DNA from: Bacillota bacterium | GTDB lineage: Bacteria; Bacillota; Dethiobacteria; Dethiobacterales; Dethiobacteraceae | DNA: 36,694 nucleotides | Reading direction: 5' to 3' | Assembly (NCBI GenBank): GCA_018725565.1 | Contig: QLUR01000027.1 | Location: forward strand, 1 to 36,694 | Shown: positions 8,657 to 30,662 of the stretch, in pieces | Position numbering within the stretch: position 1 is the stretch's first letter | Layout: every line of letters starts with the position of its first letter | Notes under the pieces: generated by a model | Told to the model about the DNA's origin: nothing | What the model saw: the letters and a program-made list of their open reading frames with translations, nothing else | The model's database searches: none | Position numbers and translations under genes: made by a program

Positions 8657-8749
8657 TTCCCTTTGCCAAAAACAGGACAACCTCGGCCGGAAATCGAATC
8701 TAGAAAAGGAATTGCGAGCGAAAGGGCCTGTTTCAGGAGGAGAGCGGTA

Positions 8750-9226
8750 ATGGCGGAACCACTCGCTGATAAAGTCATTCGCAACATCGGCCAAGCCGGG
8801 GAGCTGTACCAACGCCTGGTCTTGCTGGTTGCCCCGGCCGGCGCCGGCAAAACCGCCGCGCTTCAGGTCGTTCATGAGCGCACATCAGTCCCTTTGCTTA
8901 ATGTCAACCTTGAGTTGTCCCGGCGTATGCTCGACCTTACCGAGCGTCAGAGGGTATTAAAGTTGCCACGCCTTCTCGCGGAGAGCGTAGGGGTAGGGGT
9001 GCCTGATGTGGTGTTACTGGACAACATCGAGGTTCTTTTTGACGCCTCGCTCAAGCAAGATCCGTTGCGGCTCCTGCAGGGCCTTTCCCGAAATCTAACG
9101 GTGGTTGCGGCCTGGAGCGGTACTGTTGACGGTGAGCATATGGTTTACGCTACGCCGGGCCATCCCGAATACAGGCGATATCCAGTTCGGGATTTCCTGG
9201 CGGTGAAACCGGAGGCCATCGTATGA
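8750..9226 (+). CDS. brxF: BREX type 3 small P-loop protein BrxF
   Basis: A 158-residue single-domain ATPase with Walker [12 protein letters not shown] (residues ~28-38) and Walker [14 protein letters not shown] (~86-98). Length, motifs and position as first gene before a large BrxC fit BrxF of BREX type 3; its exact task in defence is not established. ATG 8750 lies 9 nt after AGGAGG (8735-8740), which rules out upstream in-frame starts. It is the first gene of the + strand defence operon, with 34 nt to brxC. It could be another small STAND-like ATPase, but the context argues for BrxF. Confidence 0.78.
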
Positions 9227-9260: not shown

Positions 9261-12200
9261 ATGAAATACGGGGAGCTAATCCAATTCGAGCCTCTCGAAT
9301 CTGTAGTGCAGTTGCGGGACGCTGACGAGACCATTGCCGCCCGGCAACTTATCCAGACCTATGTCATCTCCGGGGAGATGGCCGAAAAGCTGGTCAACCT
9401 CGTTGTTCCGCAACTTCAATTCGCTCAGCCCATGGATAACAAGGGGTTGCTGGTTGTCGGTAACTATGGCACCGGTAAGTCACACCTCATGTCCGTAATA
9501 TCCGCTTTGGCTGAAAACGGCGACCTGGCTGCCAGCCTGAACGACAAAAGCGTGGCGGCCGCCGCCAGCAAAATCAGCGGGCGCTTTAAGGTGGTGCGCA
9601 CCGAGATCGGGGCCACCATCATGTCTTTGCGTGACATCCTCGTAGCCGAACTGGAGGAGCGTCTGGCTGCGATGGGCGTGTCCTATTCCTTTCCGCCCCC
9701 AGACAAGGTCCCCAATAACAAGCGGGCCTTCGAGGAAATGATGACCGCCTTTCACCAGGAATTTCCTGATCAAGGACTGCTCCTCGTGGTGGACGAGCTG
9801 CTCGACTATCTGCGCTCTCGCAAGGACCAGGAACTGATCCTCGACCTCAACTTCCTGCGTGAGATTGGCGAGGTCTGTAAAGACCTGCGCTTCCGTTTCG
9901 TCGCCGGCGTGCAGGAAGCCATTTTTGACAGTCCGCGTTTTTCCTTCGTGGCTGACAGCATCCGCCGCGTGAAGGACCGCTTCGAGCAAATCCTTATTGC
10001 CCGCAAAGACGTTAAGTTCGTGGTAGCCGAGCGTCTGCTTAAAAAAACCGCTGACCAGCAGGTGAAAATCCGCGAATACCTTACCCCCTTTGCCAAGTTC
10101 TACGACCGCATGAATGAGCGCATGGACGAGTTTGTGAGCCTTTTCCCAGTGCATCCGGACTACATAGACACCTTCGAGCGGGTCACCGCCGCCGAAAAGC
10201 GGGAGGTACTCAAAACCCTGTCGCAGGCCATGAAAAAACTGCTGACACAAGACGTGCCCGGGGACCGGCCTGGCGTTATCGCCTATGACGGCTACTGGAC
10301 TACCCTGCGAGAAAATCCGTCCTTTCGCGCCGTCCCGGACATCAAGGCAGTCATTGACTGCAGCCAGGTGCTCGAATCCCGCATCCGGCAGGCCTTCACC
10401 CGCCCCGCTTACAAACCTATGGCCTTACGGCTCATCCACGCCTTGTCAGTCCATCGCCTCACCACAGGCGAGATCTACGCCCCACTGGGCGCGACGGCGG
10501 AGGAGCTGCGCGATAGCTTATGCCTCTTTCAACCGGGAATCGAGGAACTGGGCGGCGACCCGGCCGATGACCTGCTTTCCCAGGTGGAGACTGTCCTGCG
10601 GGAAATCCACAAGACGGTCAGCGGCCAATTCATTTCTTACAATCCGGACAACCGCCAGTATTACCTGGACCTCAAGAAAACCGACGATTTTGAAGCCTTA
10701 ATCGAAAAAAGGGCTGAAAGTCTCGACTCCTCGCAGCTAGACCGTTACTACTACGAAGCCCTGAAACGGGTTATGGAATGCACAGACCAGACTTATAAAA
10801 CCGGCTATAAGATTTGGCAGCACGAGCTTGAATGGCTGGAGCGCAAAGCCGCGCGCCAGGGCTACCTCTTTTTTGGCGCGCCCAACGAACGTTCCACGGC
10901 GGTGCCGCCGCGGGACTTCTACCTCTACTTCATCCAGCCCTTCGACCCGCCGCACTTCAAAGACGAAAAAAAGCCCGACGAGGTGTTCCTGCGTCTAGTG
11001 AGTGCTGACGAGCAGTTCCGCACCGCGCTCCGCAATTACGCTGCGGCGCTCGACCTGGCCTCCACCGCTTCTGGTCATGCCAAGTCAGCTTATGAATCCA
11101 AAGCCTCTAAATCCTTGCGTGACCTTGTGCAGTGGCTGCAGAAGAACATGGTCTCTGCCTTTGAGGTCACCTGCCAGGGACGCTCCAAGCCGCTCATCGA
11201 GTGGGTCAAGGGGCAAAGAGTGGAGCCTGCTTCCAGCAGGCTTAAGCTCCGGCAAGATGCCGGCGCCGCATTCAACTTCCGCGACCTTGTTAACACCATT
11301 GCCAGTGTTTGTCTTGGAACCTATTTCCAGGAACAGGCCCCTGAATACCCGTTTTTCCCGGTTTTAATCACCGGGGCAAACCGGGCTCAAGCCGCACAGG
11401 ATGCCCTGCGAGCCATCGCAGGCCTTAGCCGCACCAAGCAGGCTACCGCAGTTCTCGACGCTCTTGAACTGCTCGATGGCGAACGGCTCGATCCCTACCG
11501 CTCCAAATACGCCAGGCACATCCTTGGCGTGGTCAAGAAGAAAGGCCACGGCCAGGTGATCAACCGCGCCGAACTAATCCAGGAGGTCTACGGCATCGAG
11601 TACCTGGCGCCGGACAAGGGCTACCGACTGGAGCCCGAATGGGCTGTCGTGGTCCTGACTGCCCTTATCTATTCCGGCGACCTGGTCCTTTCCATTCCGG
11701 GTAAGAAGTTCGACGCTGCCGCGCTTTCCCTGCTGGCCGGCGTCAGCATCGCTGAATTGGCCCAGTTCAAGCACATTGAGCAGCCTAAGGACTGGAACCT
11801 TCCGGCGCTTAAAAGCCTCTTCGAACTGCTCGAACTCACGCCGGGCATGGCCATTCTCGTCACCCAGGGCAAGGACGAGCCGGTCCAGGAACTGCAAGCC
11901 AAGGTCATCAAATACGTTGAGGAGTTTGTTAAAACCCAGCAAGTTCTACGCGACGGCTTGTATTTTTGGGGACAACGTCTTTATTCTGATTCGGAACTCG
12001 CGACTTTAAGCTCACAACTGGAAGCGACGAAGTTGTTTCTGGAATCCCTGCAAGCTTATACGACAACCGGCAAACTCAAGAACTTCCGTTATGACGCCAC
12101 GGAAGTAACAGCGCACCGCAGCGGGCTCGAAACGCTTTCCGCAATCAAATCGCTCGAGGAACTAACGGTGGACTTTGGGTCCACCGCATCGTACCTCTCC

Positions 12201-13007
12201 ACCGCCGAAGCAGTCCTGCCCACCGGGCATGAGTGGATCGACAAGATGAAGGCGGCGCGGGACGAGGTGCTTGTCCAGGTAAGCGATCCGGACAAGCGGA
12301 ACGTGTCCGTCTTTCGCCAGCAAACTAAAGCAAAGCTCAGCGATCTAAAGAAAGGCTTCCTGCTAGTCTACCTCTCCTTGCACGTCAAAGCACGCCTGGG
12401 TGTTAGCGAGGACAAACGCAAATCCCAGCTCATGGGCGACGAGCGGCTCAAAAACTTACAGAAGCTCTCCACCATCGACCTGATGCCGCGCCAGCACCTC
12501 TTGGACTTCCAGAACCGGCTTGCGAGCCTGAAGAGTTGCTTTGCGCTCACCGAGCAGGAACTGGAGGCGTTTCCTGTCTGCCCGCACTGTAACTTCAAGC
12601 CGGGCCCCGAGACTTCTGCGGCGACCGCAACGACCATGCTTCAGACACTGGACGAAGAGCTTGACAAACTGGTTGATAACTGGACCCAGACGCTGCTTAC
12701 CAACCTCGAAGACCCGACCACGAAAGGGAACCTGAGCCTGCTCAAGCCCGAGCCACGCACGCTGGTAGACGGCTTCATCAAGAAGCGGGCCCTGCCTGAT
12801 AAGCTGGACCAGGACTTCATCTGCGCCGTGCAGGAGGCGCTCTCCGGACTCACTAAAGTCACGGTCAAGATTGGCGACCTGCGCGACACCCTGCTGGCGG
12901 GCGGCTCTCCGGTCACCCCAGCGGAGATGCGCAAACGTTTCGAGGAATACCTGGATGTCCTGACCAAGGGCAAAGAGCCCGGCAAAGTAAGAATAGTGCT
13001 GGAGTAG
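9261..13007 (+). CDS. brxC: BREX ATPase BrxC/PglY (DUF6079-like)
   Basis: A 1248-residue P-loop ATPase, the large ATP-binding subunit of BREX. Walker A is GNYGTGKS (residues 67-74) and Walker B LLLVVDEL (173-180). The long remainder is helical, with a CPHC pair near residue 1108. In BREX systems BrxC is needed for phage exclusion and works with PglX and PglZ. The start has GAGGGGG upstream. A REP-like palindrome is embedded in frame at 11220-11242, adding VEPASSRL (residues 654-661). The 3' end is partly echoed after the HD/YwgA pair (14941-14957), as though pglX once followed directly. Confidence 0.82.
11220..11242 (+). repeat. REP-like palindrome element 1, inside brxC
   Basis: GTGG (11220-11223), then arm AGCCTGC (11224-11230), loop TTCCA and arm GCAGGCT (11236-11242): a perfect 7-bp stem. 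It is read in the brxC frame as V-E-P-A-S-S-R-L. The same core occurs five more times, all inside pglX. Confidence 0.8.
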
Positions 13008-14966: not shown

Positions 14967-17900
14967 ATGAGTATGAAGGACGCACAGCAGTCACAGCAGA
15001 CCATTTTGGAAATGGACCAACCCGCAACCCGTAACTCAGGCGCCGTGACCTGCTTAGGTCTAGTCTTCCCGAACGAAGAGGAGCGCCGCAGGTATTTCCT
15101 CAACCTGTTGCGCGAGAAGCTGCAGGACCCCGAGTTTCGCAAGATCGAGGGCTTCCCCATCGGCTCGGATGAGGACATCCTGGCGCTGTCCGACCCGCCT
15201 TACTACACTGCCTGCCCGAACCCGTTCATTGCGGACTTCATTAAGCATTACGGCACGCCCTACGATCCGGAGACCGATAATTATCGCCGCGAGCCCTTTG
15301 CCGCAGACGTGAGCGAGGGGAAGAATGACCCCATCTACAATGCCCACTCTTACCACACCAAGGTGCCGCACAAGGCGATCATGCGCTACATCCTGCATTA
15401 CACTGAGCCGGGCGATGTGGTCTTTGACGGGTTCTGCGGCACGGGCATGACAGGGGTAGCGGCGCAATTATGCGGAGACCGCAAAACGGTGGAATCACTC
15501 GGCTACAAGGTGGACGACCAGGGTATCATCTACCAGCAGGAACCTGAGGTGTCTTCTGCATCCAATATAAGCCTGCTGGAAGCAGGCGCCACAGACCTTG
15601 CTCTAGTTGGGCCAATTTCCAATGTAGGTTCAACATTAAATGTGGGGCCGGCTTCCAGCAGGCCAAAATCAAACTGGCAGCCCTTTTCCAAGCTCGGCGC
15701 CCGCCGCGCCATCCTAAACGACCTCTCCCCAGCCGCCACCTTCATTGCTTACAACTACAACACGCCGGTAGATGTAGCAGCGTTCGAGCGCGAAGCCAAA
15801 CGCATCCTCAAAGAGGTGGAAGACGAATGCGGCTGGATGTATATTACGATGACGCCTAAGATACGCAGGGATGGGTTGCAGAGATCTCCTGATGAGCAAA
15901 TCTCTGAACTGGCCGCTAGGCTTCGCCTGGCCAAATCGGCTGACGAAGCTCGTAAGACTATTGATGAGCTTGGAACCGGAGATCAGAACTCACCAATTAC
16001 TGGGTTTGGCATTGGCAAAATCAACTATACCGTCTGGTCCGATGTTTTTGTTTGCCCGGAGTGCGCCAAAGAAGTGGTCTTCTGGGAAGCGGCGGTGGAC
16101 AAGGAAGCCGGCAAAGTCCACAGCGAGTTTCCCTGCCCGCACTGCGGCGCCACGCTTACCAAGCGCAACATGGACCGCGCCTGGATAACCCGGTATGACA
16201 AGGCCATCGGCCAGACCATCCGCCAGGCCAAGCAGGTGCCGGTGCTGATCAACTATACAGTAGTGGAGCCGGCTTCCAGCCGGCTGCAAAGATATGAAAA
16301 AAAACCCGACGCCTTCGATCTGGCGCTCATCGAGAAAATTGAGCAACTGGACATCCCCTGCTGGTTTCCGACGGACCGCATGCCAGAGGGGGATGAGTCA
16401 CGGCGCAACGATGGCATAGGCCTCACCCACGTGCACCATTTTTATACCAAGCGGAATTTGTGGGTATTGGGGGCGATTAGTAAACGTCTTAATGCAAGAA
16501 CACGTCTTGTATTTCAGTCTATAGTGGTCACACTTTGTTCCCGGCTAGTCCGATACAACATGGGCAATCGCGGTAATGGTCCACTGTCTGGAACGCTGTA
16601 TGTCAGTTCGCTTATAGCCGAGACACGCCCCACATGGGTTATGCCCAGCAAAGCCAAAGACTTTGCCAAAGCGTTTGTTGCTCCGTCTTATACTTACATC
16701 GATACTCAATCAACATCGGTCCTGAAACCTGAGAAATGCGACGTTGACTACATCTTCACCGACCCCCCCTTTGGCGGTAACCTGATGTATTCTGAGCTGA
16801 ATTTCCTGTGGGAAGCTTGGCTCAAGGTCTTCACCAACAACAAGCCGGAAGCCATCGAGAACAAGGTTCAGGGCAAAGGTCTGGTTGAATACCAATGGCT
16901 GATGACCGAGTGCTTCAAGGAATACTTCCGGGTTTTAAAGCCGGGCCGGTGGATGACGGTGGAGTTTCACAACTCCAAAAACAGCGTTTGGAACGCCATT
17001 CAGGAGGCGCTCCAAACCGCGGGCTTTGTCATCGCCGATGTGCGCACACTGGACAAGCAGCAGGGCTCTTTTAAGCAGGTCACCAGCTCAGGCGCCGTCA
17101 AGCAGGACCTCGTTATCTCCTGCTACAAACCCAACGGCGGCCTGGAGGAACGCTTCAAGCTGACCGCCGGCACCGAGCAGGGCGTCTGGGATTTCATCCG
17201 CACCCACCTGAAGCAACTCCCAGTCTTGGTAGTAAAAAGCAGGAACAGCCGGCTGGAAGCCGGCTCCACACAGAATTCCACGCAGAATTCCGGTTCCGCA
17301 ACCCTTGAAGTCATCGCCGAACGGCAAAACTACCTGCTTTTTGACCGCATGGTAGCCTTCCACGTCCAGCGTGGGGTGACCGTTCCGCTGTCTGCGGCAG
17401 AGTTTTATGCCGGACTTGTCCAGAGGTTCCCCGAACGGGACGGCATGTACTTCCTCCCCGAACAGGTGGCTGAATACGACAAAAAGCGCATGACCGTCCG
17501 CGAGGTGCTGCAACTGCAAATCTTTGTCACCGACGAGTCCTCGGCTATCCAGTGGCTTAAGCAGCAGCTTGCCGGAAAACCGCAGACCTTCCAGGAACTC
17601 CATCCGCAGTTCATGAAAGAGCTCGCCGGCTGGCAGAAACACGAGAAACCGCTTGAGCTGTCCGAGCTGCTGGAACAGAACTTCCTGCGCTATGACGGCA
17701 AAGGAGAAGTGCCAAACCAGATACACAGTTACCTTTCGACAAACTTCAAGGACCTGCGCAACCTGCCCAAGGACGACGAGAATCTTCGCGCCAAGGCAAA
17801 GGACCGCTGGTATCTGCCCGACCCGAACAAGGCCGGCGACTTAGAAAAACTGCGTGAGCGGTCGCTGCTAAAAGAGTTTGGGGAATATGTGGCCTTGGTT

Positions 17901-18110
17901 TCCAGCGTGACGCCTGCTTCCAGCCGGCGAAAGCTAAAAGTCTTCCGCCTCGAGGCCGTCCGTGCCGGCTTCAAGAAAGCCTGGCAGGAGCGCGACTACG
18001 CCACCATCATCACCGTGGCCCGCAAGATTCCCGAAAACGTCCTCCAGGAAGACCCGAAACTTTTAATGTGGTACGATCAGGCGGTAACACGCTCAGGGGA
18101 GGGCAAATGA
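14967..18110 (+). CDS. pglX: BREX type 3 adenine-specific DNA methyltransferase PglXI (DUF1156)
   Basis: A 1047-residue DNA methyltransferase. The N-terminal DUF1156-like part has SDPPYYTACPNPF; the SAM-binding motif is DGFCGTGMTG (~153-162). A four-cysteine zinc ribbon spans C363/C366/C390/C393 (CPEC...CPHC). The catalytic motif IV DPPF lies at 599-602 (FTDPPFGGNLMYSELNF). PglX methylates host DNA at a non-palindromic site and takes part in exclusion. Five REP-like palindromes are read in frame (residues near 202-233, 433, 761 and 981), apparently in surface loops; the first two lengthen the linker between motif I and LGARRAILNDLSP. The reading frame is intact, so the gene is likely functional. 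ATG 14967 is preceded by AAGGGGTG. Confidence 0.85.
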   Translation: MSMKDAQQSQQTILEMDQPATRNSGAVTCLGLVFPNEEERRRYFLNLLREKLQDPEFRKIEGFPIGSDEDILALSDPPYYTACPNPFIADFIKHYGTPYDPETDNYRREPFAADVSEGKNDPIYNAHSYHTKVPHKAIMRYILHYTEPGDVVFDGFCGTGMTGVAAQLCGDRKTVESLGYKVDDQGIIYQQEPEVSSASNISLLEAGATDLALVGPISNVGSTLNVGPASSRPKSNWQPFSKLGARRAILNDLSPAATFIAYNYNTPVDVAAFEREAKRILKEVEDECGWMYITMTPKIRRDGLQRSPDEQISELAARLRLAKSADEARKTIDELGTGDQNSPITGFGIGKINYTVWSDVFVCPECAKEVVFWEAAVDKEAGKVHSEFPCPHCGATLTKRNMDRAWITRYDKAIGQTIRQAKQVPVLINYTVVEPASSRLQRYEKKPDAFDLALIEKIEQLDIPCWFPTDRMPEGDESRRNDGIGLTHVHHFYTKRNLWVLGAISKRLNARTRLVFQSIVVTLCSRLVRYNMGNRGNGPLSGTLYVSSLIAETRPTWVMPSKAKDFAKAFVAPSYTYIDTQSTSVLKPEKCDVDYIFTDPPFGGNLMYSELNFLWEAWLKVFTNNKPEAIENKVQGKGLVEYQWLMTECFKEYFRVLKPGRWMTVEFHNSKNSVWNAIQEALQTAGFVIADVRTLDKQQGSFKQVTSSGAVKQDLVISCYKPNGGLEERFKLTAGTEQGVWDFIRTHLKQLPVLVVKSRNSRLEAGSTQNSTQNSGSATLEVIAERQNYLLFDRMVAFHVQRGVTVPLSAAEFYAGLVQRFPERDGMYFLPEQVAEYDKKRMTVREVLQLQIFVTDESSAIQWLKQQLAGKPQTFQELHPQFMKELAGWQKHEKPLELSELLEQNFLRYDGKGEVPNQIHSYLSTNFKDLRNLPKDDENLRAKAKDRWYLPDPNKAGDLEKLRERSLLKEFGEYVALVSSVTPASSRRKLKVFRLEAVRAGFKKAWQERDYATIITVARKIPENVLQEDPKLLMWYDQAVTRSGEGK
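15571..15664. repeat. Head-to-head pair of REP-like palindromes (elements 2 and 3) in pglX
   Basis: Element 2 is in minus orientation: GCCTGC, loop TGGAA, GCAGGC (15571-15587), then CCAC (15589-15592). Element 3 is in plus orientation: GTGG (15642-15645), GGCCGGC overlapping it, loop TTCCA and GCAGGCC (15658-15664), with one mismatch. The ~50 nt between are AT-richer. The layout resembles a BIME (paired inverted REPs). The pair encodes about 31 extra residues of PglX, read as SLLEAGAT ... NVGPASSRP. Confidence 0.75.
16263..16285 (+). repeat. REP-like palindrome element 4, inside pglX
   Basis: GTGG (16263-16266), AGCCGGC, loop TTCCA, GCCGGCT (16279-16285): a perfect 7-bp stem, the cleanest copy in plus orientation. 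It is read as V-E-P-A-S-S-R-L, as in brxC. Confidence 0.8.
17247..17269 (-). repeat. REP-like palindrome element 5, inside pglX, with tandem 12-mer
   Basis: AGCCGGC (17247-17253), loop TGGAA, GCCGGCT (17259-17265), then CCAC (17266-17269), the complement of GTGG. It is read as SRLEAGST. It runs into a tandem repeat of a 12-nt unit, CCACACAGAATT / CCACGCAGAATT (17266-17289), coding S-T-Q-N twice. Confidence 0.8.
17907..17928 (+). repeat. REP-like palindrome element 6 (degenerate), inside pglX
   Basis: GTGA in place of GTGG (17907-17910), then GCCTGC (17912-17917), loop TTCCA and GCCGGC (17923-17928), with one mismatch in the stem. It is read as V-T-P-A-S-S-R. It is the most decayed of the six copies. 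Confidence 0.65.
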
Positions 18111-18518: not shown

Positions 18519-18520
18519 AC

Positions 18521-18838
18521 ATGGAAAAGAAGACTCAGTATAAGGTGGTTGTTTCTGACCGCGCCCGTCATATGCTGGCGGGCCATGTGCGTTTTCTGGC
18601 AAAGACTTGCCCTGTAGCGGCCCGGAAAATGAAAGATGAGCTGATGGCCTCGATCCGTTCCCTGTACCAAATGCCGGAGCGGTTCACATATCTTTCAGCG
18701 GAGTTTATTCCGCCAAACAAAAATCACAAGATGTTCGTTGAGAAGTGGTATCTCATTTTATACCAAGTCAAAGAGCAAACGGTGTACGTTGATTACATCG
18801 TGGATTGCAGACAGGATTACGGGTGGTTGGTGCGGTAG
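18521..18838 (+). CDS. RelE/ParE-family toxin (TA module 2)
   Basis: A 105-residue protein of the RelE/ParE fold: YKVVVSDRARHMLAGHVRFLA at the start and KMFVEKWYLILYQVKEQTVYVDYIVDCRQDY at the end. ATG 18521 begins 2 nt after the antitoxin stop. The pair lies between pglX and brxHII, where loss of the operon would release the toxin; an addiction role for the island is inference. The exact target (mRNA or gyrase) cannot be read from the sequence. Confidence 0.82.
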   Translation: MEKKTQYKVVVSDRARHMLAGHVRFLAKTCPVAARKMKDELMASIRSLYQMPERFTYLSAEFIPPNKNHKMFVEKWYLILYQVKEQTVYVDYIVDCRQDYGWLVR

Positions 18839-18880
18839 ATTTCAATGGGTTCACTCATTATTTCGGGAGGAAATGTGCAG

Positions 18881-19582: not shown

Positions 19583-22507
19583 TTGAACCAAGGGGATTGG
19601 GTGTGTCTACAAAAAGATGATGTCGGCAAGGTTATCGAGGTGGAGACCCTCTGGGGCGAGACTACCTGCCGCGTCTGGCTGCCCGGGCGCGACTGTGTGG
19701 TTAGAGTTCCGGTCACGCGGCTCAAGCCTCTAGAGAGCTCCGGCGCCAACTCACCGGATAAAATTGCTTATATCGCGGCCGCTGCACGGGTGGCTGACGC
19801 CCTGACGCAAGACCTCTCTGCCTGCGACGCACAGGCAGGCGTTTTGCTAGCACCCATCGAATCTTCGGTCATCCCGCTCCCGCACCAGATCTGCGCCCTT
19901 TCCCGCGCCATAGCGGGCGACCGGGTGCGCTATCTCCTGGCCGATGAGGTGGGTCTCGGCAAGACCATCGAGGCCGGCCTTATTTTACGGGAACTGAAGC
20001 TGCGCGGGCTGGTCAGGCGGACGCTGGTCATTGCTCCAAAGGGGCTAGTGAGCCAGTGGCAGGCTGAAATGCGGACCCACTTCGGGGAAACCCTCCAACT
20101 TGTGCTCCCTGAGGACATCAAAACACTGAAGCGGATCGCCCCGGCAAACGTTAACAAAGGGAATAATGACCCCGGGGAGGTGTCTGCCAACGCCTGGCGG
20201 ATGTTCTCTCAGGTGGTCGTGCCCATGGACTCGTTCAAGCCGCTGGAGAAGCGCCGTGGCTGGAGTGCGGCCCAGGTAGGCGAATACAATCGTGAAAGAT
20301 TCGAGGATTTAATTTCCGCAGGCTGGGACCTGGTCATCGTGGACGAGGCGCACCGGCTTGGAGGCAGCACGGACCAAGTGGCTCGCTTCAAGCTGGGTCA
20401 GGGGCTCGCCGAGGCTGCTCCTTATTTCCTGCTGCTCTCGGCTACTCCGCACCAAGGGAAGACCGATGCATTTCAACGGCTGTTGTCTTTGCTTGACCCC
20501 CGGGAGTTTCAGGATATCAGCAGCGTTACCCGTGAGCGGGTCCGGCCTTATGTGATCCGCACCGAGAAACGCCGTGCCATAGATGCCGAGGGGAAGCCGT
20601 TGTTCAAGCCGCGGCGCACACAACTTACTCCGGTCTCCTGGGATGAACGTCACCGCAGCCAGCAACTCCTCTATGAGGCGGTGACCGAATATGTACGGGA
20701 AGGCTACAACCAGGCAATACGGGAGAAGCGCAGCTATATTGGCTTCCTGATGATTTTGATGCAGCGATTGGTGGTTTCCAGCACAAGCGCCATTAAGTCT
20801 ACGCTGAAGCGTCGCCTGGAAATTCTGGCTTCCGAGTCCAATGTCCCGAATCTTATCGAAGAACTTCAGACATTGGACATTAGATCAGAAACCTTTTACG
20901 ACCAGGATGGCCAGGAGCAGGTGGACATGCTGCTCCGTACCCGCCTTAAGGCACTGAAGAACGAGCGGGCGGAAGTCAAGCTGCTGTTGGAAACTGCCAA
21001 CCGTTGCGAACAGGTCGGACCGGACGCCAAGGCCGAGGCGCTGCTCGATTGTCTTTATCGCCTCCAGTCAGAGGAGGGGGATCCGGAACTAAAGGCGCTG
21101 GTGTTCACTGAATTTATTCCTACCCAGGAGATGTTGCGGCGGTTCCTGACCGAGCGCGGGTTCTCGGTGGTTTGCCTGAACGGTTCCATGGACATGGAAG
21201 AACGCAAAGAGGCTCAGGAGTGCTTCGCCAGGGATGCCCGCATTCTAATCTCCACCGATGCCGGCGGCGAGGGTTTGAACCTGCAGTTCTGCCACGTGGT
21301 AATCAACTACGACATCCCCTGGAACCCGATGCGCCTGGAACAGCGAATCGGCCGGGTGGATCGCATCGGGCAATCCCATACTGTCCGCGCGGTCAATTTT
21401 GTTTTCGAGGGCTCGGTCGAGCACCGGGTGCGGGAGGTGCTGGAACAGAAGCTTGCGGTTATCTTCGAGGAGTTTGGCATCGACAAAACCGGCGATGTCC
21501 TCGACTCAGCTCAAGCGGGTCAAATGTTCGACGAGATGTATGTCGAGGCGATTCTCAACCCCGAGAATGTGGAAGAATCCGTGAAGAATGTGGTCACCCG
21601 CTTGCAAGAGCAGGCCCGCGCTGCCCGAACCACGGCAGCCGTGCTTGGCGCAACTGAGGCCCTGGACCCTGGCCAAGCCCAGCGGCTGCTGACCCACCCT
21701 TTGTCCCATTGGGTCGAGCGCATGACCGTAAGCTATCTTAAGGCGCATGGCGGCCAAGCTGAGAGAAAAGGCCAGAGTTGGACGCTTACTTGGCCGGACG
21801 GCAAAACCCACGAAAACGTGGTTTTCACCGTCAAGGAGGCCGAAAGACTTCCGGCCGCGCGGCATCTTACTCTGGAAGAACCAAAGGTACGCGTGTTGGC
21901 CGTGCGGCTTCCCCGTTTCGTTCCGGGCCAGCCGGTCCCGTCGGTATCGATCCCCGGTATCTCTGCCGAAGTTAAAGGGCTCTGGTCTTTGTGGCAAATA
22001 TCTGTCGTGATTCACGAGTTCCGAGCCGCTAGTCGCTGGGACGGACCCGTGACTCTGGATTTAGGACCCGAGAACCGCCGCAGGCGCATCATGCCTCTCT
22101 TCCTTGCTGACAACGGCATGGTCTACAAACCGACGGCCAGGCACGTATGGGATCAGCTCCTTGCGGAAAGCGCGCTAGTCCGCTTTGTTCTGGAAGCCCC
22201 GTTCTCGCAAGATTCCTTCGCGAAGTTGCGGTACGTTGCGGAGGAACATGGAAGGCCCATTTACGGGGCTCTTGTTCATGAGCACCGGGCCCGTATTGCT
22301 CGTGAACGTGAAAAGGCTGACTATGCTTTTGCCGCCCGCCGCAGAACCACCGGACGGATCGGTCTGCCCCAGGTCAAAAACTTCCGCCTGAGCCTGTTAG
22401 CCCAGGAGGAGCGAAACTTTCAGGAACAGCTTGACCAGCAGGCCCATGCTTATCCCGAGATGGCGCCGCTGCTTATTTTGCGTGTGGAGGGTGGCAGCCA
22501 TGACTAG
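19583..22507 (+). CDS. brxHII: SNF2-family helicase BrxHII of BREX type 3
   Basis: A 974-residue superfamily 2 helicase/translocase. The N-terminus has a small beta-rich domain (DWVCLQKDDVGKVIEVETLW). The motor follows: motif I DEVGLGKTIEAGLIL (from residue 121), motif II DEAH (254-257), motif V STDAGGEGLNL (~557) and motif VI QRIGRVDRIGQ (~587-597). A long C-terminal extension follows. It resembles BrxHII and the related DISARM helicase DrmD; the neighbours decide for BREX. The start is TTG 19583 with GAGGGG 6 nt upstream. Its stop overlaps by 8 nt an ATG that once began pglZ (22500), so the two genes were formerly coupled. Confidence 0.82.
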   Translation: MNQGDWVCLQKDDVGKVIEVETLWGETTCRVWLPGRDCVVRVPVTRLKPLESSGANSPDKIAYIAAAARVADALTQDLSACDAQAGVLLAPIESSVIPLPHQICALSRAIAGDRVRYLLADEVGLGKTIEAGLILRELKLRGLVRRTLVIAPKGLVSQWQAEMRTHFGETLQLVLPEDIKTLKRIAPANVNKGNNDPGEVSANAWRMFSQVVVPMDSFKPLEKRRGWSAAQVGEYNRERFEDLISAGWDLVIVDEAHRLGGSTDQVARFKLGQGLAEAAPYFLLLSATPHQGKTDAFQRLLSLLDPREFQDISSVTRERVRPYVIRTEKRRAIDAEGKPLFKPRRTQLTPVSWDERHRSQQLLYEAVTEYVREGYNQAIREKRSYIGFLMILMQRLVVSSTSAIKSTLKRRLEILASESNVPNLIEELQTLDIRSETFYDQDGQEQVDMLLRTRLKALKNERAEVKLLLETANRCEQVGPDAKAEALLDCLYRLQSEEGDPELKALVFTEFIPTQEMLRRFLTERGFSVVCLNGSMDMEERKEAQECFARDARILISTDAGGEGLNLQFCHVVINYDIPWNPMRLEQRIGRVDRIGQSHTVRAVNFVFEGSVEHRVREVLEQKLAVIFEEFGIDKTGDVLDSAQAGQMFDEMYVEAILNPENVEESVKNVVTRLQEQARAARTTAAVLGATEALDPGQAQRLLTHPLSHWVERMTVSYLKAHGGQAERKGQSWTLTWPDGKTHENVVFTVKEAERLPAARHLTLEEPKVRVLAVRLPRFVPGQPVPSVSIPGISAEVKGLWSLWQISVVIHEFRAASRWDGPVTLDLGPENRRRRIMPLFLADNGMVYKPTARHVWDQLLAESALVRFVLEAPFSQDSFAKLRYVAEEHGRPIYGALVHEHRARIAREREKADYAFAARRRTTGRIGLPQVKNFRLSLLAQEERNFQEQLDQQAHAYPEMAPLLILRVEGGSHD

Positions 22508-22534
22508 CTGGCGGGACCAGATCTCAGAGAGTTC
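22500..22534 (+). pseudogene. Orphaned 5' end of pglZ
   Basis: ATG 22500 with GGAGGG (22486-22491) reads MTSWRDQI and then diverges, ending at TGA 22562. The DNA matches the start of the intact pglZ (26983-27018): 18 identical bases AGCTGGCGGGACCAGATC, 22 of the first 24 identical, and similarity continuing to GAGTTC with one gap. It is a relic of the ancestral brxHII-pglZ junction, now separated from pglZ by the NurA-HerA-methyltransferase block. Confidence 0.85.
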
Positions 22535-22554
22535 TCATATGGGGGGGAGCGCAA

Positions 22555-23697
22555 GTGATTGATCCGGAATCCTATGCTCTGATTAAAGAGGCTATTGCGG
22601 GATGTATCGACACCGATCAGAGTGTTCTGGACACCTTGTGCGAAGAGATTAGGCCGATAAAAGGTGCTACCCGCAGAATCCAACCGCGAGTCACCACATC
22701 GATTTCGTTGGTTGGTACGGACGGTGGTAACAATCAACTCCAGTTCGATCCTTTTCTCATCCAACTTGTTCGCGTTGTGGACAGCAGCAACAACGAGTAT
22801 TGTTTAGAGGCTGTTTCTCCCACCACGCCAATAGATAGGCTTGGCGAGCGCCAGTTCAATGAGGATGGTTCGCCCCGTACGGCACTGGGAGAGATGATGA
22901 CCTTACTTGGCGTAAACAGCCTGCCCGCGCTTTCGCACATGATCCGCCCCGGAAATAAAGGCAAGCCGATGTCGCCCAGCTGGGTCCAGGTGTATCGCGA
23001 ACTAATCGAGTGGGCAGTCCTTTTATCAATTCTCAAGAAGGACTTTGGCACGGATTCCTTAATCGTCTGCGATGGCTTATTGCGCAGCAAGGTATTCGCC
23101 AAGGAACTGTTCCAGCACCTACTACAAGAGATGAAAAGGCGCATCGAAGCGCAGTTTAAACGTAACCGTCGACACATTTACTTAGTTGGGGTAGCTAAGC
23201 ACAGCAAGGTGCTCTCGCGTTATCGGTTGGCGATGTCATTAGAGGGCGTGCTCCAGACCGACTATCCAGCTTACGTCGAGGTGCCACGCGAGGTTGAAGA
23301 GCGGGCTTATGTCTGGTCCGAGTTTGCTCGTGGCGACGACCGCGTCGCGGAAGGAGGTGAGATTAACAGATTCGTAGGCGGAAAGATGTTTCTGGTGAAG
23401 TTTGGTTCCCACCGGCGTGATCCAGTGTGGCCGGTGGATATTTTCTTGCCACAGGTGAGCGAAGCTCAGTTGATACTGGGATCGATGCTGGCTGATGCCA
23501 TTAACGGTTTTCCAATTCCAAACTACCCGCTATGCCTGCAAAAGGCACATGAGAATGCCGCGGTTGTTGATTTCGACTTAGATATTTTACAGAATTTTAT
23601 TTATGAGGGACTGCGCAGAAGTCTTGGCACCCAGGCCTCAACGTTGGATGTATTCCAACTACAAGATGCTGACCCGGCTCAACGCCGGTACGGATAA
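22555..23697 (+). CDS. nurA: NurA-domain nuclease
   Basis: A 380-residue NurA-family nuclease; NurA proteins degrade DNA ends with Mn2+ and work with the HerA hexamer. Motifs in order: SLVGTDGGNNQL (first metal Asp), SLIVCDGLLRSK (second Asp), LVGVAKHSKVLSRY (Lys), GGKMFLVKFGS and the C-terminal PNYPLCLQKAHENAAV. All expected catalytic positions seem present. The GTG start at 22555 follows GGGGGGAG and lies inside the orphaned pglZ frame. herA follows 12 nt later, the usual partner order. It is not part of standard BREX. Confidence 0.8.
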   Translation: MIDPESYALIKEAIAGCIDTDQSVLDTLCEEIRPIKGATRRIQPRVTTSISLVGTDGGNNQLQFDPFLIQLVRVVDSSNNEYCLEAVSPTTPIDRLGERQFNEDGSPRTALGEMMTLLGVNSLPALSHMIRPGNKGKPMSPSWVQVYRELIEWAVLLSILKKDFGTDSLIVCDGLLRSKVFAKELFQHLLQEMKRRIEAQFKRNRRHIYLVGVAKHSKVLSRYRLAMSLEGVLQTDYPAYVEVPREVEERAYVWSEFARGDDRVAEGGEINRFVGGKMFLVKFGSHRRDPVWPVDIFLPQVSEAQLILGSMLADAINGFPIPNYPLCLQKAHENAAVVDFDLDILQNFIYEGLRRSLGTQASTLDVFQLQDADPAQRRYG

Positions 23698-23709
23698 GGA
23701 GAAAATGAC

Positions 23710-25818
23710 ATGACAGATATCCAGCTGTTTCCCAGGGAAAAAGTCGTCGGTATCTTTAGGGGGTTTCAACAGGGTGGTCTGGAATTCTATGCCGACTTGG
23801 TGCTGCCCTACAGGAACGAGTTTCAAAATATCCCTATGCACGGGCAATTTATACTGGTACAACTGCAGACGCCAGATGAAGCAGTTCTTGGTCGCATTGC
23901 CTCTTTTTCATCAGAAGGCAAGCTTTCCTTCGGTTCGGGAGAGGAGTTTAACATCCGCGCCTTGCGTGAAGACCGGCAAATCCCCGAAGATTTGCGGGAG
24001 CAGTACCTTAAGTATCGTGTTAATATACGCGTTTTAGGTGTGCTCCGCAACAATGGAAAGGACCTGACCTTCGTGGCGTCCCATAGGCGACTGCCACATG
24101 TAGGTAGTCGGGTAGCATTCCCTTCAGATGATGTGCTGCGCGAAATTGCCGGGCATAACATAGACGGTGCGATGATCGGTCACCTCGCCTTCGGTGAATA
24201 TATCTATGCGGGAAGTAACCCCAAGCTCGAAGCCCAAGAATGGATGCAGGTTTTGCAGCCGGAGGTGATGGTCCGCTTTGCTATCGAATCTCTCGTCTCG
24301 CGACGCAGTTTCATCTTTGCCCGGGCTGGCTTCGGTAAGTCCAACTTAAACAAGCTGCTGTTCTCCAGGCTTTACGAAACCACGCCTCATGTTACTAAGC
24401 GCAGGGACAAGCGAGTGCCCGTCGGCACAATTATTTTTGATCCAGATGGCGAATACTTCTGGCCGGACGACAAGGGGCGGCCAGGCTTGTGTGACGTGCC
24501 TGCCCTTGAAGACAAGCTGGTGGTGTTCACTGGGCGCAAAAATCCGAGCCCGTTCTACCAGTCGTTTGTTGCGGGCGGTATCCGACTTGATGTCCGCCGC
24601 CTGCGTCCCAGCGATGTCATTGCGATTGCCTTGGGGCCTGAACGTCAGGAACAGCAGAACGTCCGCAAGCTGCGCGGATTGTCCCAAGACCGCTGGGAGT
24701 CGCTGGTCAATTTGATCGATATCAATGGAAATGCGGCACCGCTGGACGAGGTCAGAAAACTCCTCGATCTTGAAGCGAATCAGGAGGCAGAAGCTCTAGC
24801 CGCAAGAGGCAATATGACGGCTATTGTGAAGATGCTCCACGATAAAAGCAGCCAGCTGATGGATATGCTTATCCATGCGTTGTCGGAAGGAAAGCTTTGC
24901 GTTATTGACGTTTCCCAGATGCGCAGTGGCCAATCGTTAATGCTCTCGGGATTAATCTTAAGGCGAATCTTCGACCGCAACCAGCAAGAATTTACTGCTG
25001 CTGAACCAAAGACCATACCTACTATCGCCGTGGTGGAGGAAGCTCAAGCAGTGCTGAATGAAAATGCCCCTGCGTCCGAGCCTTATGTGACGTGGGTAAA
25101 AGAGGGCCGAAAGTACGACCTAGGTGCGTTACTCATTACCCAGCAGCCGGGCAGCATTCCAGTAGAAATCTTGAGCCAGGGGGACAACTGGTTCGTCTTC
25201 CACTTGCTATCTGCAGCCGATCTCAACACCTTGAAAAAGGCAAACGCGCACTTCAGTGAAGATTTGCTGAGTTCGCTGCTTAACGAACCGATTCCAGGCC
25301 AAGGTGTTTTTTGGAGTTCCGTGGGTGGCAAGCCCTACCCGGTCAGTCTTCGCGTCCTTTCGTTTGAAAAGATGTTTTCAATGCGTGATCCTGACTACAA
25401 CCAGCCTGTTGGCCATACTTACGCAGAGGTGTTACGCAATACCTTTTCTAGTACGATTCAGCTGAACAACAATATTCGTACTCCGGACACCGATAGTACG
25501 GTCACACTATTCCCCCCTGAACGAGAGGACGACGATTCCGTAGATATCATGGCGAACATTGAGCAGCAGGCAATTAAGGCGCTGCAAGCTGAAGCCAATC
25601 TGATAAGCAAGGTCGAGTCATCAGAGGGCACCGCGTGGGGTTCAATAAAGGCTTTCTTTCTCAGGCATCTGCCAGACCATTTGGACAATAAAGATACGCT
25701 AGCCTACAATCTTGTAAGGAAGGCACTGGAGTATATGTACGGACCTCAAAATCAGGGATGGGAGACTTATAAAAATGAGGCGAAGAATAACACAACCTAT
25801 GTTCGAAGGAGAGGCTAA
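23710..25818 (+). CDS. herA: HerA-like DNA translocase ATPase
   Basis: A 702-residue HerA/FtsK-like ATPase (DUF87 type). It has a beta-barrel-like N-terminus, Walker A ARAGFGKS (204-211), Walker B TIAVVEEAQAVLNE (~437-450) and the following LGALLITQQPGSIPVEILSQ sensor region. HerA forms hexameric rings pumping DNA into NurA; similar HerA proteins pair with nucleases in several defence systems. Start ATG 23710 lies after AAGGAGAAAATGAC. The methyltransferase gene begins 3 nt after the stop, so the three genes form one cassette. Confidence 0.82.
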   Translation: MTDIQLFPREKVVGIFRGFQQGGLEFYADLVLPYRNEFQNIPMHGQFILVQLQTPDEAVLGRIASFSSEGKLSFGSGEEFNIRALREDRQIPEDLREQYLKYRVNIRVLGVLRNNGKDLTFVASHRRLPHVGSRVAFPSDDVLREIAGHNIDGAMIGHLAFGEYIYAGSNPKLEAQEWMQVLQPEVMVRFAIESLVSRRSFIFARAGFGKSNLNKLLFSRLYETTPHVTKRRDKRVPVGTIIFDPDGEYFWPDDKGRPGLCDVPALEDKLVVFTGRKNPSPFYQSFVAGGIRLDVRRLRPSDVIAIALGPERQEQQNVRKLRGLSQDRWESLVNLIDINGNAAPLDEVRKLLDLEANQEAEALAARGNMTAIVKMLHDKSSQLMDMLIHALSEGKLCVIDVSQMRSGQSLMLSGLILRRIFDRNQQEFTAAEPKTIPTIAVVEEAQAVLNENAPASEPYVTWVKEGRKYDLGALLITQQPGSIPVEILSQGDNWFVFHLLSAADLNTLKKANAHFSEDLLSSLLNEPIPGQGVFWSSVGGKPYPVSLRVLSFEKMFSMRDPDYNQPVGHTYAEVLRNTFSSTIQLNNNIRTPDTDSTVTLFPPEREDDDSVDIMANIEQQAIKALQAEANLISKVESSEGTAWGSIKAFFLRHLPDHLDNKDTLAYNLVRKALEYMYGPQNQGWETYKNEAKNNTTYVRRRG

Positions 25819-25820
25819 CG

Positions 25821-26939
25821 GTGTTGTCGGAACCGAACGTTCAAACTGCTCTTAACGGGATATGCCCGTACTTCACCATGTTTCCGCTTGACTTTCCTTT
25901 TGGCATTCTTAAAAAGCAAGCGAAGAAGGGCGACCATGTGCTTGATCCCTTCTGCGGACGAGGTACGACCAACTTTGCCGCCCGGCTCCTTGGGCTCTCA
26001 TCCTTAGGGGTGGATTCCAGCCCTGTCGCGGCTGCAGTAACTGCCTCCAAACTGGTGAGTACAAATGTTGAAGAAATTATGGCAGAGGTACGTCACATCC
26101 TTAATGCCCGTGAATCTTGCGATGTGCCATCCAGTGAGTTCTGGCGCTTAGCTTATCATCACGAAGTGCTGGACGCGCTGTGCCGACTGCGCGAAGCATT
26201 CCTTGCGGATTGCTCGACCGCGGCACGAATAGCGTTGCGCGGTATCATTCTAGGTGCGCTACATGGCCCGAAGCAAAAGACTTTCCAGAGCTATTTCTCG
26301 AACCAGTGTCCCCGGACTTATGCCCCGAAGCCTGCCTATGCCACGCGGTTTTGGAGAAAACGAGGACTTATGCCTGAGCAGGTGGACGTTTTGGCTATAA
26401 TTGAACGTCGAGCAAGACGTTATTTCGGAACGTTACCAGATGCCGACGGAACAGCTAGGTTAGCAGACAGTCGTAAACGAGAGTCCCTACTGCCAACGTC
26501 TTCTGATGAACGGTTTGATTGGGTAATCACATCGCCGCCATACTATGGTATGCGCACTTATATACCGGACCAGTGGCTTCGCAACTGGTTTCTGGGCGGC
26601 TCCGATGTAGTAGACTATACTATCCGTAACCAAATCGCACACAGTAACACGGGAGACTTTGCGGCAGATTTGAGGCAGGTCTGGCGTAACGCTGCTGCTG
26701 TGAGTAGCGGTGATGCCAAGCTGGTAGTTCGCTTTGGTGGCATTGCAGATCGGCAGGCTAACCCGCTCGACCTTCTCGAGAACTCTTTTGCAAATAGTGG
26801 ATGGCGTGTTTTCGCAATTCGTGATGCGGGCTCTGCCGTGGAAGGCAAGCGTCAAGCAACTACCTTTCTCCGCAGCGATACCAAGCCAATGGCTGAATAT
26901 GATTTTTGGGCTTTGAAGGATGATGGTTCACGCCATTAG
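25821..26939 (+). CDS. DNA methyltransferase, SPPY type (N4-cytosine or N6-adenine)
   Basis: A 372-residue DNA methyltransferase. It begins with the SAM motif VLDPFCGRGTTNFAARLLG (DPFCGRGT at 42-49) and has the catalytic motif ITSPPYYGMRTYIPDQW (TSPPY at 237-241) in the second half: the DPF-first, SPPY-later order of beta-class enzymes. SPPY favours N4-cytosine methylation but does not exclude adenine. It has no separate endonuclease, so NurA-HerA may be the nuclease that its marks hold back. The start is GTG 25821 (a TTG at 25824 is possible). It differs clearly from PglX (DPPF), giving the island two methylation activities. Confidence 0.8.
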   Translation: MLSEPNVQTALNGICPYFTMFPLDFPFGILKKQAKKGDHVLDPFCGRGTTNFAARLLGLSSLGVDSSPVAAAVTASKLVSTNVEEIMAEVRHILNARESCDVPSSEFWRLAYHHEVLDALCRLREAFLADCSTAARIALRGIILGALHGPKQKTFQSYFSNQCPRTYAPKPAYATRFWRKRGLMPEQVDVLAIIERRARRYFGTLPDADGTARLADSRKRESLLPTSSDERFDWVITSPPYYGMRTYIPDQWLRNWFLGGSDVVDYTIRNQIAHSNTGDFAADLRQVWRNAAAVSSGDAKLVVRFGGIADRQANPLDLLENSFANSGWRVFAIRDAGSAVEGKRQATTFLRSDTKPMAEYDFWALKDDGSRH

Positions 26940-26982
26940 TCTTCTATAGCCCTGAGGAAATCGAAAGACGGTGGTGTCGTTA

Positions 26983-28989
26983 ATGAACAGCTGGCGGGAC
27001 CAGATCCTCAAGGAGTTCCCCCCGAAGGTGGCCCGGCTTACTTTGGTGGCCGACCCGGATGGGCTTTTGCTTGAGGAAGGAATTCTCGAAGGTATCCGTG
27101 AACGGGGCTTCGAGCTGATTCCCTTCGAAGACCACATTTCTTTCCGCTATGTCTATGAATCGCAGTTTCGTTCCCGCTGGGACCGGGGAGAACATACGGA
27201 GTTGGTAGTCGTCCTACGATCCGAGACCGGCGACCTCGGGGGATTGCCCTTCGATCTGCTCCAGGCCGGTCGAAAGCTTTCGTTCAACCTCGGTGATATC
27301 TTTCCAAACCTCAGTTATCCGGTCGTGACCGCACTGGATCGCGGCGAACTTGATGCCTTGTATGAAGCCCAGAGAGGGCATGCTCCGGGCCAGTTAGGCG
27401 ACAACGCCACCAAGGAGTTTGTTCTCCGGCATGTCTTTGAAATTGCGCCGGAGTTGATCAAACAACCCTCGGACCTTTTGCGCGTGCTGCTTCGTCGCCA
27501 CTACCGCGGTCAACGTATCCCACAGGCGCTTGATGAACGGTTCATTAAACTGCTGCGACAGAGCGCTCATTTCAACGAATGGCCGCTCGAAAGATTGGCG
27601 GCGGACCGAGAGGCTTTTTTTACCTTCCTACAAGAACGATGGCCAATCTTCCTTGACCGCGAAGCAAGCAAGGGAACATATAGTGTTCGTGAAAATGGGA
27701 AGCCCTACGGGATGACCATTGAGGGGCCGATCGATCTGCCTTTTGACCACCACGACATTCGCGTCTACGTTGATAATCTCTTTACCGAGGGCTTGTTGCA
27801 TTCTGTGCAACATGACCACGCGGATGCCTTGTCCAAGACCTGGGTTGGCATCGGCATCCGGACTGCACCTAACGAAGACAGGGCCCGCAGGGTGGGCAAG
27901 CTCATAGAGAACCTGCGGGCGGCTCTTCCGGCTGACGACGCCAAGCACACGGAGTGGTTCCATTTTGCCCGCGGTTGGGCGGAGTTGATTGTGCTCTTGC
28001 ATGAGCAGTCCGAAACTGCAGCAGGGGAATTGCTTGCGCAGATTAAGGCCTTGCGGTCACGAGTGGATAACGGATTTACCGCTTGGCTTTTAAAGCGATT
28101 CGCGGGATTGATCAACCTGCCGCCGGCGCCGCCGGTGATGCTGCATCATCTACCGCGCTTTCTTGCCCGACAGGCGGAGGAGAACCGTCAAGCGAAGATT
28201 GCTTTGATCGTGGTGGATGGCCTGGCCATGGATCAGTGGCTGGTGATCCGTGATGCGCTCGTGTCAAAAAAGCCCGGCTTCCGGTTCCGTGACCAGGCTG
28301 TCTTTGCCTGGGTTCCTTCCCTTACCTCCGTTTCACGCCAGGCCGCCTTTGCCGGCAAGGCCCCCGTCTTTTTCCCGGACAGCATCCTTACCACGGACAA
28401 AGAAGCGGTGCTGTGGTCACAGTTCTGGTTGGACCACGGCTACACAACCGATCAGGTGGTTTACATCAAGGGGGTGGACGCCGCGAGCTTGGAATCTGTG
28501 GTGGAAGCGCTTTCTTATCCGCAGGTAAGGATTGCCGGGCTGGTAGTCGACAAGGTTGATAAGATCATGCACGGGATGGAAATGGGCGCCGCCGGGATGC
28601 ACAACCAAGTTGCCCAATGGGCCAAACAGCCGTATCTTACCAATCTGCTTGAGGTACTTTTGGACCGCGGATTCTGGGTTTATCTAACATCTGATCATGG
28701 CAACATCGAGGCAGAAGGTTGTGGCCGTCCGGCGGAAGGGGCTGTCGCAGACCTGCGCGGAGAGCGGGTTCGTGTTTATCCGGATACAATCCTTCGCCGC
28801 AAAGTAAAGGAGCAATTTCCAGCTGCGCTCGAATGGGGCTCCATCGGTCTTCCCGAGGATTACCTGAGCCTCTTGGCCCCTCCCCGCCAAGCCTTTGTTC
28901 AACATGGGAAGCGCTCCGTCGTTCACGGCGGAATTTCTATCGAAGAACTCATCGTCCCTCTGGTCCGGGTCGAGAGGATGGACGAATGA
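26983..28989 (+). CDS. pglZ: BREX alkaline-phosphatase-superfamily protein PglZ
   Basis: A 668-residue PglZ, the hallmark BREX protein. It opens MNSWRDQILKEFPPKVARLT. The phosphatase-superfamily core lies in the C-terminal half: ALIVVDGLAMDQW (~407-419), a PSLTSVSRQAAFAG stretch likely holding the nucleophile Ser/Thr, LTSDHGNIEAEG (~568-579) and HGGISIEELIVP. PglZ is needed for both methylation and exclusion. ATG 26983 is set by homology with the orphan copy at 22500; GTG 26971 is also in frame. The site before it is poor compared with GGAGGG before the orphan, so translation may have dropped or changed. It overlaps the next gene by 4 nt. Confidence 0.85.
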   Translation: MNSWRDQILKEFPPKVARLTLVADPDGLLLEEGILEGIRERGFELIPFEDHISFRYVYESQFRSRWDRGEHTELVVVLRSETGDLGGLPFDLLQAGRKLSFNLGDIFPNLSYPVVTALDRGELDALYEAQRGHAPGQLGDNATKEFVLRHVFEIAPELIKQPSDLLRVLLRRHYRGQRIPQALDERFIKLLRQSAHFNEWPLERLAADREAFFTFLQERWPIFLDREASKGTYSVRENGKPYGMTIEGPIDLPFDHHDIRVYVDNLFTEGLLHSVQHDHADALSKTWVGIGIRTAPNEDRARRVGKLIENLRAALPADDAKHTEWFHFARGWAELIVLLHEQSETAAGELLAQIKALRSRVDNGFTAWLLKRFAGLINLPPAPPVMLHHLPRFLARQAEENRQAKIALIVVDGLAMDQWLVIRDALVSKKPGFRFRDQAVFAWVPSLTSVSRQAAFAGKAPVFFPDSILTTDKEAVLWSQFWLDHGYTTDQVVYIKGVDAASLESVVEALSYPQVRIAGLVVDKVDKIMHGMEMGAAGMHNQVAQWAKQPYLTNLLEVLLDRGFWVYLTSDHGNIEAEGCGRPAEGAVADLRGERVRVYPDTILRRKVKEQFPAALEWGSIGLPEDYLSLLAPPRQAFVQHGKRSVVHGGISIEELIVPLVRVERMDE

Positions 28990-29738
28990 CAGGGGCGCGA
29001 TTCTCCCAGGTCGGAATTGACCGCCTCGTTCGTCTTGATTGGCTTGAGAGAGTTGCCTCCCTAGCATTAGCTGGTAATGACACAAAGGCCGTTAAGGGAG
29101 TTCTGCAGCATGATCTGAAACAGTTATTTCGATCTGAAAGGACAGACGTACGCGGATCGCTGGACAAGACAATCACCATTCTCTTGAAAGTATGGGTGAC
29201 TACTCCGCCTTTGCTCGAATCGTTGCGGACAGAGGGGCTCGAATTACTTAAATATCTTCCTCAACAAGATAAACTGGCAGTTCATTGGGGCATGGTCATG
29301 GCGGTCTATCCTTTCTGGTCTAGTGTAGCTATGCAGGTTGGGCGACTATTGAGGCTTCAAGGCACAGTGACAGCAGCCCATGTGCAACGTCGTGTGCGTG
29401 AACAGTATGGGGAGAGAGAAACCGTTTCCCGTCGTACTCGCTATGTTCTGCGGTCATACCTGGACTGGGGTGTGCTGCAGGAGAGCGGGACAAAGGGTAT
29501 TTATGCCTGCGGGAGAGTTCTTTTCATTGAAGACCCTCGGCTCATTACTTGGCTGACCGAAGCCGTGCTTCATGCCCGTGCCAACGGGGCGGCTCCGCTT
29601 AAGGCGCTGCTTGACAGCCCAAGCGTCTTTCCTTTCAGATTCAAACCCATTCAGGCTGCAAGCATTAGCGCGGCTTCCCCCAGGCTAGACATTATCCGCC
29701 ACGGGCTGGATGATAACCTTATCATATTTAAGAAGTGA
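28986..29738 (+). CDS. Terminal BREX gene, BrxA-like winged-helix protein (tentative)
   Basis: A 250-residue soluble basic protein. ATG 28986 overlaps the pglZ stop by 4 nt; longer in-frame starts lie inside pglZ and are rejected. The middle (HVQRRVREQYGERETVSRRT, then RYVLRSYLDWGVLQESGTKGIY) looks like a winged-helix domain. In BREX type 3 the last gene is brxA (DUF1819), a small DNA-binding protein, and position and helix content fit. I see no diagnostic DUF1819 motif, so a different wHTH subunit is possible. It ends the co-directional operon. Confidence 0.5.
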   Translation: MTGARFSQVGIDRLVRLDWLERVASLALAGNDTKAVKGVLQHDLKQLFRSERTDVRGSLDKTITILLKVWVTTPPLLESLRTEGLELLKYLPQQDKLAVHWGMVMAVYPFWSSVAMQVGRLLRLQGTVTAAHVQRRVREQYGERETVSRRTRYVLRSYLDWGVLQESGTKGIYACGRVLFIEDPRLITWLTEAVLHARANGAAPLKALLDSPSVFPFRFKPIQAASISAASPRLDIIRHGLDDNLIIFKK

Positions 29739-30112: not shown

Positions 30113-30129
30113 GACAGGAGGTGACCAAA

Positions 30130-30641: not shown

Positions 30642-30662
30642 ATAAGCCGTGTCTGTTTTGTT

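Follow-up and report, generated by a model that had tools for sequence, protein, structure and literature searches.

Evidence for insertion of a nurA-herA-methyltransferase module between brxHII and pglZ in a type III BREX operon

Analysis of the window (the whole stretch of 36,694 nucleotides of DNA) revealed brxF, brxC, pglXI, brxHII, pglZ and brxA in one operon, with strong matches to their family models, which identifies the operon as a type III BREX system. Genes for a NurA-type nuclease, a HerA-type translocase and a methyltransferase are positioned between brxHII and pglZ. The features are as follows.

8663..9226, + strand: brxF, type III BREX ATPase (PADLOC BrxF, E 1.5e-71)
9261..13007, + strand: brxC, DUF6079 ATPase (Pfam PF19557 over its full length, 1832 bits)
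14967..18110, + strand: pglXI, methyltransferase of type III BREX (PADLOC PglXI, 1519 bits)
19583..22507, + strand: brxHII, helicase (a single PADLOC model for BrxHI/BrxHII, 1500 bits)
22500-22534, + strand: pglZ-start stub, reading MTSWRDQI and then out of frame
22555..23697, + strand: nurA, TdpB-like nuclease with a GTG start and without promoter space of its own (AlphaFold2 and Foldseek)
23710..25818, + strand: herA, TdpA-like translocase
25821..26939, + strand: gene for an SPPYY amino-methyltransferase
26983..28989, + strand: pglZ, BREX-3 phosphatase/nuclease (NCBIfam BREX_PglZ_3, E 1.2e-253)
26983-27018, + strand: working pglZ start, the second copy of the repeat (from the alignment)
28986..29738, + strand: brxA (PADLOC BrxA, E 6e-96)

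The BREX operon is flanked by core genes, namely, ispD, ispF and gltX on the left and cysE and cysS on the right, in a draft assembly of 112 contigs. Among the 97 further genomes of the class, none had a comparable pglZ, so BREX itself was probably acquired. The C terminus of BrxHII is native (VEGGSHD, as in its relatives). Two more cargo inserts are located in the same operon, at 13013-14904 and 18515-19459; one pairs an HD phosphohydrolase with a protein like the DarG C terminus, the other a ParE-like toxin with a DUF488 protein. The GC3 of the HD/DarG-like pair is markedly below that of its BREX neighbours. Six in-frame insertions of the palindrome GCCkGCTTCCAGCmGGC are present, one in brxC and the other five in pglX (window positions 11225, 15571, 15647, 16268, 17248 and 17912). 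The extra residues are absent from relatives, the genome has only three other exact copies, and the palindrome is similar to in-frame palindromic elements like those known from Rickettsia. A transposase-like remnant to the right of brxA contains, at 30022-30056, a second copy of 35 nt of gltX (6777-6811; 33/35 identical), and two putative type II toxin-antitoxin pairs occupy 30128-31240, between brxA and the cysE T-box leader.

The NurA protein matched none of the Pfam, PADLOC and NCBIfam models. Searching with its AlphaFold2 model (pLDDT 86.8) in Foldseek revealed TdpB as the best match (E 2e-12, TM 0.65), followed by the Sulfolobus NurA; at the sequence level the similarity to TdpB is weak (E 0.0036). 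HerA matched the Pfam HerA central domain (E 3e-20), and its nearest solved relative by profile is TdpA (E 1.8e-26), with the archaeal HerA behind it (7e-16). Tdp is a phosphorothioation defence system in which TdpA and TdpB form the restriction pair and TdpC is the phosphorothioation enzyme. Alignments revealed invariant acidic residues in NurA (D56, E149 and D173) and an invariant Walker motif in HerA. By modelled fold and by sequence, the nuclease and the translocase resemble TdpB and TdpA more closely than they do the classical repair proteins NurA and HerA. The third protein was assigned to Pfam N6_N4_Mtase (E 8.7e-12), and its motifs I (DPFCGRGTT) and IV (TSPPYY) are invariant among 39 homologues. 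A fold search revealed a class I methyltransferase fold, with matches including DAM and also RNA and small-molecule methyltransferases. Its substrate is likely DNA, as suggested by the (D/S)PPY motif and the company of its gene; RNA is also possible.

Local alignment of the stub at 22500-22534 (ATGACTAGCTGGCGGGACCAGAT-CTCAGAGAGTTC) with the pglZ start at 26983-27018 (ATGAACAGCTGGCGGGACCAGATCCTCAAGGAGTTC) revealed 31 identical columns out of 36, with one gap and 18 identical bases in a row. The similarity stops at GAGTTC, and an extension of the repeat 5' of the stub ATG found no support. No other exact repeat of 18 nt exists in the window, and across the 2.67 Mb of the genome the 18-mer has only these two exact sites and one further site with 2 mismatches. 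The alignment score was 45; 5000 dinucleotide shuffles reached at most 30, and random window positions 23. Chance similarity was ruled out by the shuffles together with the genome-wide 18-mer count. The brxHII stop codon (TAG, 22505-22507) lies within the stub (ATGACTAG) and overlaps the ATG at 22500, which is preceded by GGAGG. The stub frame (MTSWRDQISESSHMGGSASD*) has departed from the pglZ frame through a 1-nt deletion and terminates within the first nurA codons (GTG at 22555). The first-pass annotation had described a helicase stop overlapping an ATG with a ribosome site, a near-identical pglZ start further downstream with similarity continuing to GAGTTC, and nurA, herA and an SPPY methyltransferase gene between the two copies. 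The alignment bears out this description and refines it by the loss of the stub frame.

Type III BREX operons of the same phylum reveal the earlier state of the junction. Three of them, L133 (...GGAGGGTGGTAACCATGACTAGCTGGCGTGACCATATCCTCAAGGAGTTT), L130 (...CATGAGTAGCTGGCGC) and L140 (...ATGGCTAGTTGGCGC), represent empty sites with the same overlapping junction, in which the brxHII stop is located within the pglZ start (ATGACTAG, ATGAGTAG and ATGGCTAG, respectively). These empty sites identify the stub as the native start of pglZ and the trio as the insert. In all of the approximately 18 sampled type III BREX operons that show both genes, brxHII and pglZ are adjacent and mostly overlapping, and none holds the trio at this junction; two (L102 and L131) have a gap of about 190 nt without genes. 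By their absence from these junctions, the three genes are probably not components of type III BREX. Cargo in the relatives is found between pglX and brxHII instead. The GC3 of the trio is 0.50 to 0.57, compared with 0.60 to 0.72 for brxF, brxC, pglX, brxHII and pglZ, with brxA at 0.51. Insertion of nurA, herA and the methyltransferase gene between brxHII and pglZ, as had been proposed from the window, is thus strongly supported by sequence comparison. A horizontally moving module appears to have entered the overlapping junction, through a crossover or a duplication that fell among the first ~12 codons of pglZ. As the empty sites show, the native start was left on brxHII as a stub, and pglZ now runs from a second start past the module.

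Comparison with L133 also bears on how the second start arose. The stub retains the ancestral ATGACT, including the brxHII stop, and has lost the pglZ frame. The working pglZ start retains the ancestral CTCAAGGAGTT and has lost the brxHII stop (ATGAAC). Both copies have in common three bases that differ from L133. Each copy is altered only where the old sequence is no longer needed. Such a pattern is consistent with plain duplication of the pglZ start during an illegitimate insertion, followed by drift in the parts freed from constraint: the second copy could dispense with the brxHII stop, the stub with the pglZ frame. The similarity over 36 columns, which exceeds the exact core, and the duplicated druE start of another trio locus (L084, described below) agree with this account, whereas the 18-nt core was spared by all changes although it is mostly unconstrained in the stub. 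We regard plain duplication as a plausible origin that falls somewhat short of being probable.

An intact 18-bp core with polarised arms would also be expected of a crossover at the core. The trio may have arrived on a circular element that recombined with the 5' end of pglZ through the 18 identical bp and brought a replacement start with it, with the integrase acting in trans or since lost. This route can be held only tentatively. The copies differ only outside the exact core, and, judged against L133, it is the outer arm of each copy (left in the left copy, right in the right copy) that is native. SXT/R391 integrative elements provide a precedent: their integration site, 17 bp long, lies in the 5' end of prfC, where they replace the gene start and restore a hybrid gene (PMC7251087). 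The 18-bp identical core with a replaced gene start corresponds to the ~17-bp core of such elements; unlike them, this insert has no integrase, and no recombinase ORF was found between the repeat copies. A tyrosine recombinase is located near some other trio copies (L014; L018, L045 and L060 by motif only), and the L036 copy adjoins an integron integrase. Against a crossover, the similarity runs past the core, which simple duplication explains, and L084 has no long exact core.

Flanking repeats were tested at 75 loci. Clear start duplication was found only in L084 and in the window, with L014 as a weak case (thus 2-3 of 75), and flanking repeats were rejected as a general trait of the trio. 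A repeat in L024 was set aside as a cassette flank; it lies far from the cassette in GC-rich coding sequence. In L084, the trio interrupts a Druantia-like operon in antisense orientation. A partial druE start of about 130 bp (75% identical) directly follows the upstream gene, and an intact druE start lies beyond the trio. In druE relatives the upstream gene usually abuts or overlaps druE; the empty-site case is moderate because upstream gene B of L084 matches the upstream genes of those relatives weakly (E 3.7e-4). Since L084 splits its operon as the trio splits the BREX operon, a start left behind is not unique to the window, but it is rare. L014 has a 23-nt flanking repeat at the start of a recombinase gene. 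In L036 (8476-14623, Desulfacinum infernum), the trio has an integron integrase next to it and attC-like repeats on its flanks, and is apparently a three-gene integron cassette. Integrases are present near some of the trio copies. The differences among L084, L014 and L036 indicate that the trio is mobile by several routes.

NurA relatives are encoded at 76 loci among 84,980 scanned species genomes, spanning Pseudomonadota, Chloroflexota, Acidobacteriota, Verrucomicrobiota, Bacillota, an archaeon and others; the closest copies (83% identical) are from Pseudomonadota. A methyltransferase homologue adjoins NurA in 47 of 66 loci with a readable neighbourhood (41 called adjacent and 6 of the other 25 on recheck), almost always without BREX. 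Some of the 66 come from a survey of 398 phylum genomes; L013 and L073 denote one and the same contig. The layout is mostly NurA-HerA-methyltransferase on one strand; some loci have the methyltransferase first, and three have it on the other strand. About 19 of the 66 NurA-HerA loci lack this methyltransferase, which suggests that the methyl mark may not be essential. Among the 398 phylum genomes, the distribution is patchy (12 genomes); close NurA relatives (E < 1e-100) were found in 7 and close methyltransferase relatives in 8, with 7 genomes in common, an overlap with a chance probability of ~3e-14 by hypergeometric estimate. The distance correlation is 0.94 between NurA and HerA and 0.58-0.73 for the methyltransferase, which indicates that the nuclease-translocase pair is a fixed core and that the methyltransferase is swapped more often. 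No copy of this NurA was found in 72,556 plasmids, 50,697 phages and IMG/VR.

Trio copies neighbour DISARM-like genes, type I restriction-modification genes, MADS and BREX. In L025 (1-14364, Methylococcus capsulatus Texas) and L033 (775-14368, Burkholderiaceae), the trio is divergent beside type III BREX. In three loci, the NurA-HerA pair lacks the methyltransferase, and a conserved 248-aa DUF3223 protein is encoded after it (L037, 3549-4292; L038, 7073-7816; L056, 13295-14038); in L038 and L056, a divergently encoded 297-aa protein, WYL-like by eye, is located 5' of nurA. The trio is a real, widespread module that moves horizontally between distant bacteria. Two findings that would have spoken against the proposed insertion, a trio shared by related BREX operons and a trio never occurring as a unit elsewhere, were looked for, and the opposite was observed in both cases.

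The adjacency of methyltransferase and nuclease genes in 47/66 loci is what a restriction-modification system would display, and by analogy the trio is probably a mobile module of this kind, with a translocase-nuclease and a methyl self-mark. The HerA hexamer would pump DNA to the nuclease NurA in the manner of the homologous TdpAB pair, and the SPPYY methyltransferase would mark host DNA and so spare it from NurA. Gating of the nuclease by methylation is most likely on the analogy with TdpAB. The role of a self-contained modification and restriction unit, predicted by the first-pass annotation, fits the gene anatomy. Stand-alone trio copies have a conserved leader 5' of nurA, which the copy in the window has lost, and the spacing between brxHII and nurA is only 47 nt; the trio should therefore now be co-expressed with BREX. 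Translation of nurA may be coupled via the stub frame.

The 47-nt spacing also makes co-transcription likely and raises the question of whether the trio has become a functional set of BREX subunits, an auxiliary effector with a second mark, rather than an independent system. The two copies divergent beside type III BREX (L025 and L033) and the frequent occurrence of auxiliary nucleases inside BREX loci (PMC12839542) point in this direction. The majority of copies, however, occur without BREX, and the trio is missing between brxHII and pglZ in every type III BREX relative sampled, which makes conversion into BREX subunits unlikely. It is highly improbable that the trio serves DNA repair rather than defence: the classical archaeal HerA-NurA resects DNA ends (PMC12977600), but the nearest solved relatives here are TdpAB, mre11 and rad50 are absent from the window, and the trio is patchy (12/398), has a methyltransferase partner and has been transferred across phyla. 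The account that we consider probable as a whole is that the module was inserted at the junction, is most likely a restriction-modification system and is now transcribed with BREX. A bolder proposal, rather doubtful as it stands, is that the trio represents an undescribed widespread class of restriction-modification, in which a TdpAB-like translocase-nuclease is gated by base methylation, not phosphorothioation, and whose cassette enters the first codons of defence-operon genes (pglZ, druE), where the old start stays in place and the effector gene remains functional through a second start.

No NurA-HerA-methyltransferase defence system was found in the open-access literature, and the module, although widespread, is unnamed as a system in Pfam, NCBIfam and PADLOC. 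Foreign defence genes nested in BREX loci are known, e.g., BrxU/GmrSD and PARIS (PMC12839542, PMC8565348), and NurA is not mentioned in PMC12839542. The present cargo differs from them in its position in the tight brxHII-pglZ overlap and in the gene-start stub left there. The locus provides a sequence-level record of one defence system built into another, with the empty site, the occupied site and the fossil stub. The HerA-anchored defence systems SIR2-HerA (Nezha) and DUF4297-HerA have HerA models in PADLOC and NCBIfam that match the trio HerA weakly (54 bits with the HerA_antiphage model, below its curated cut-off of 800), and the partners in the trio are instead a NurA nuclease and a methyltransferase. 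The HerA-NurA end-resection complex has both protein folds (4d2i for HerA and 2ygk for NurA are the next matches), whereas the trio includes a methyltransferase, is horizontally spread and patchy, and has no Mre11-Rad50. Tdp (TdpAB; PDB entries 8wet, 8wfd and 8y1k) comprises the nearest solved relatives and likewise has a HerA-type translocase beside a NurA-type nuclease. Beyond the translocase core the sequences have little similarity, and the operon place of the phosphorothioation enzyme TdpC is held here by a base-amino methyltransferase. If the nuclease is gated by methylation, Tdp-like translocase-nucleases can pair with quite different self-marks. The trio is best classed as a BREX-nested variant of HerA-NurA/TdpAB-like defence.
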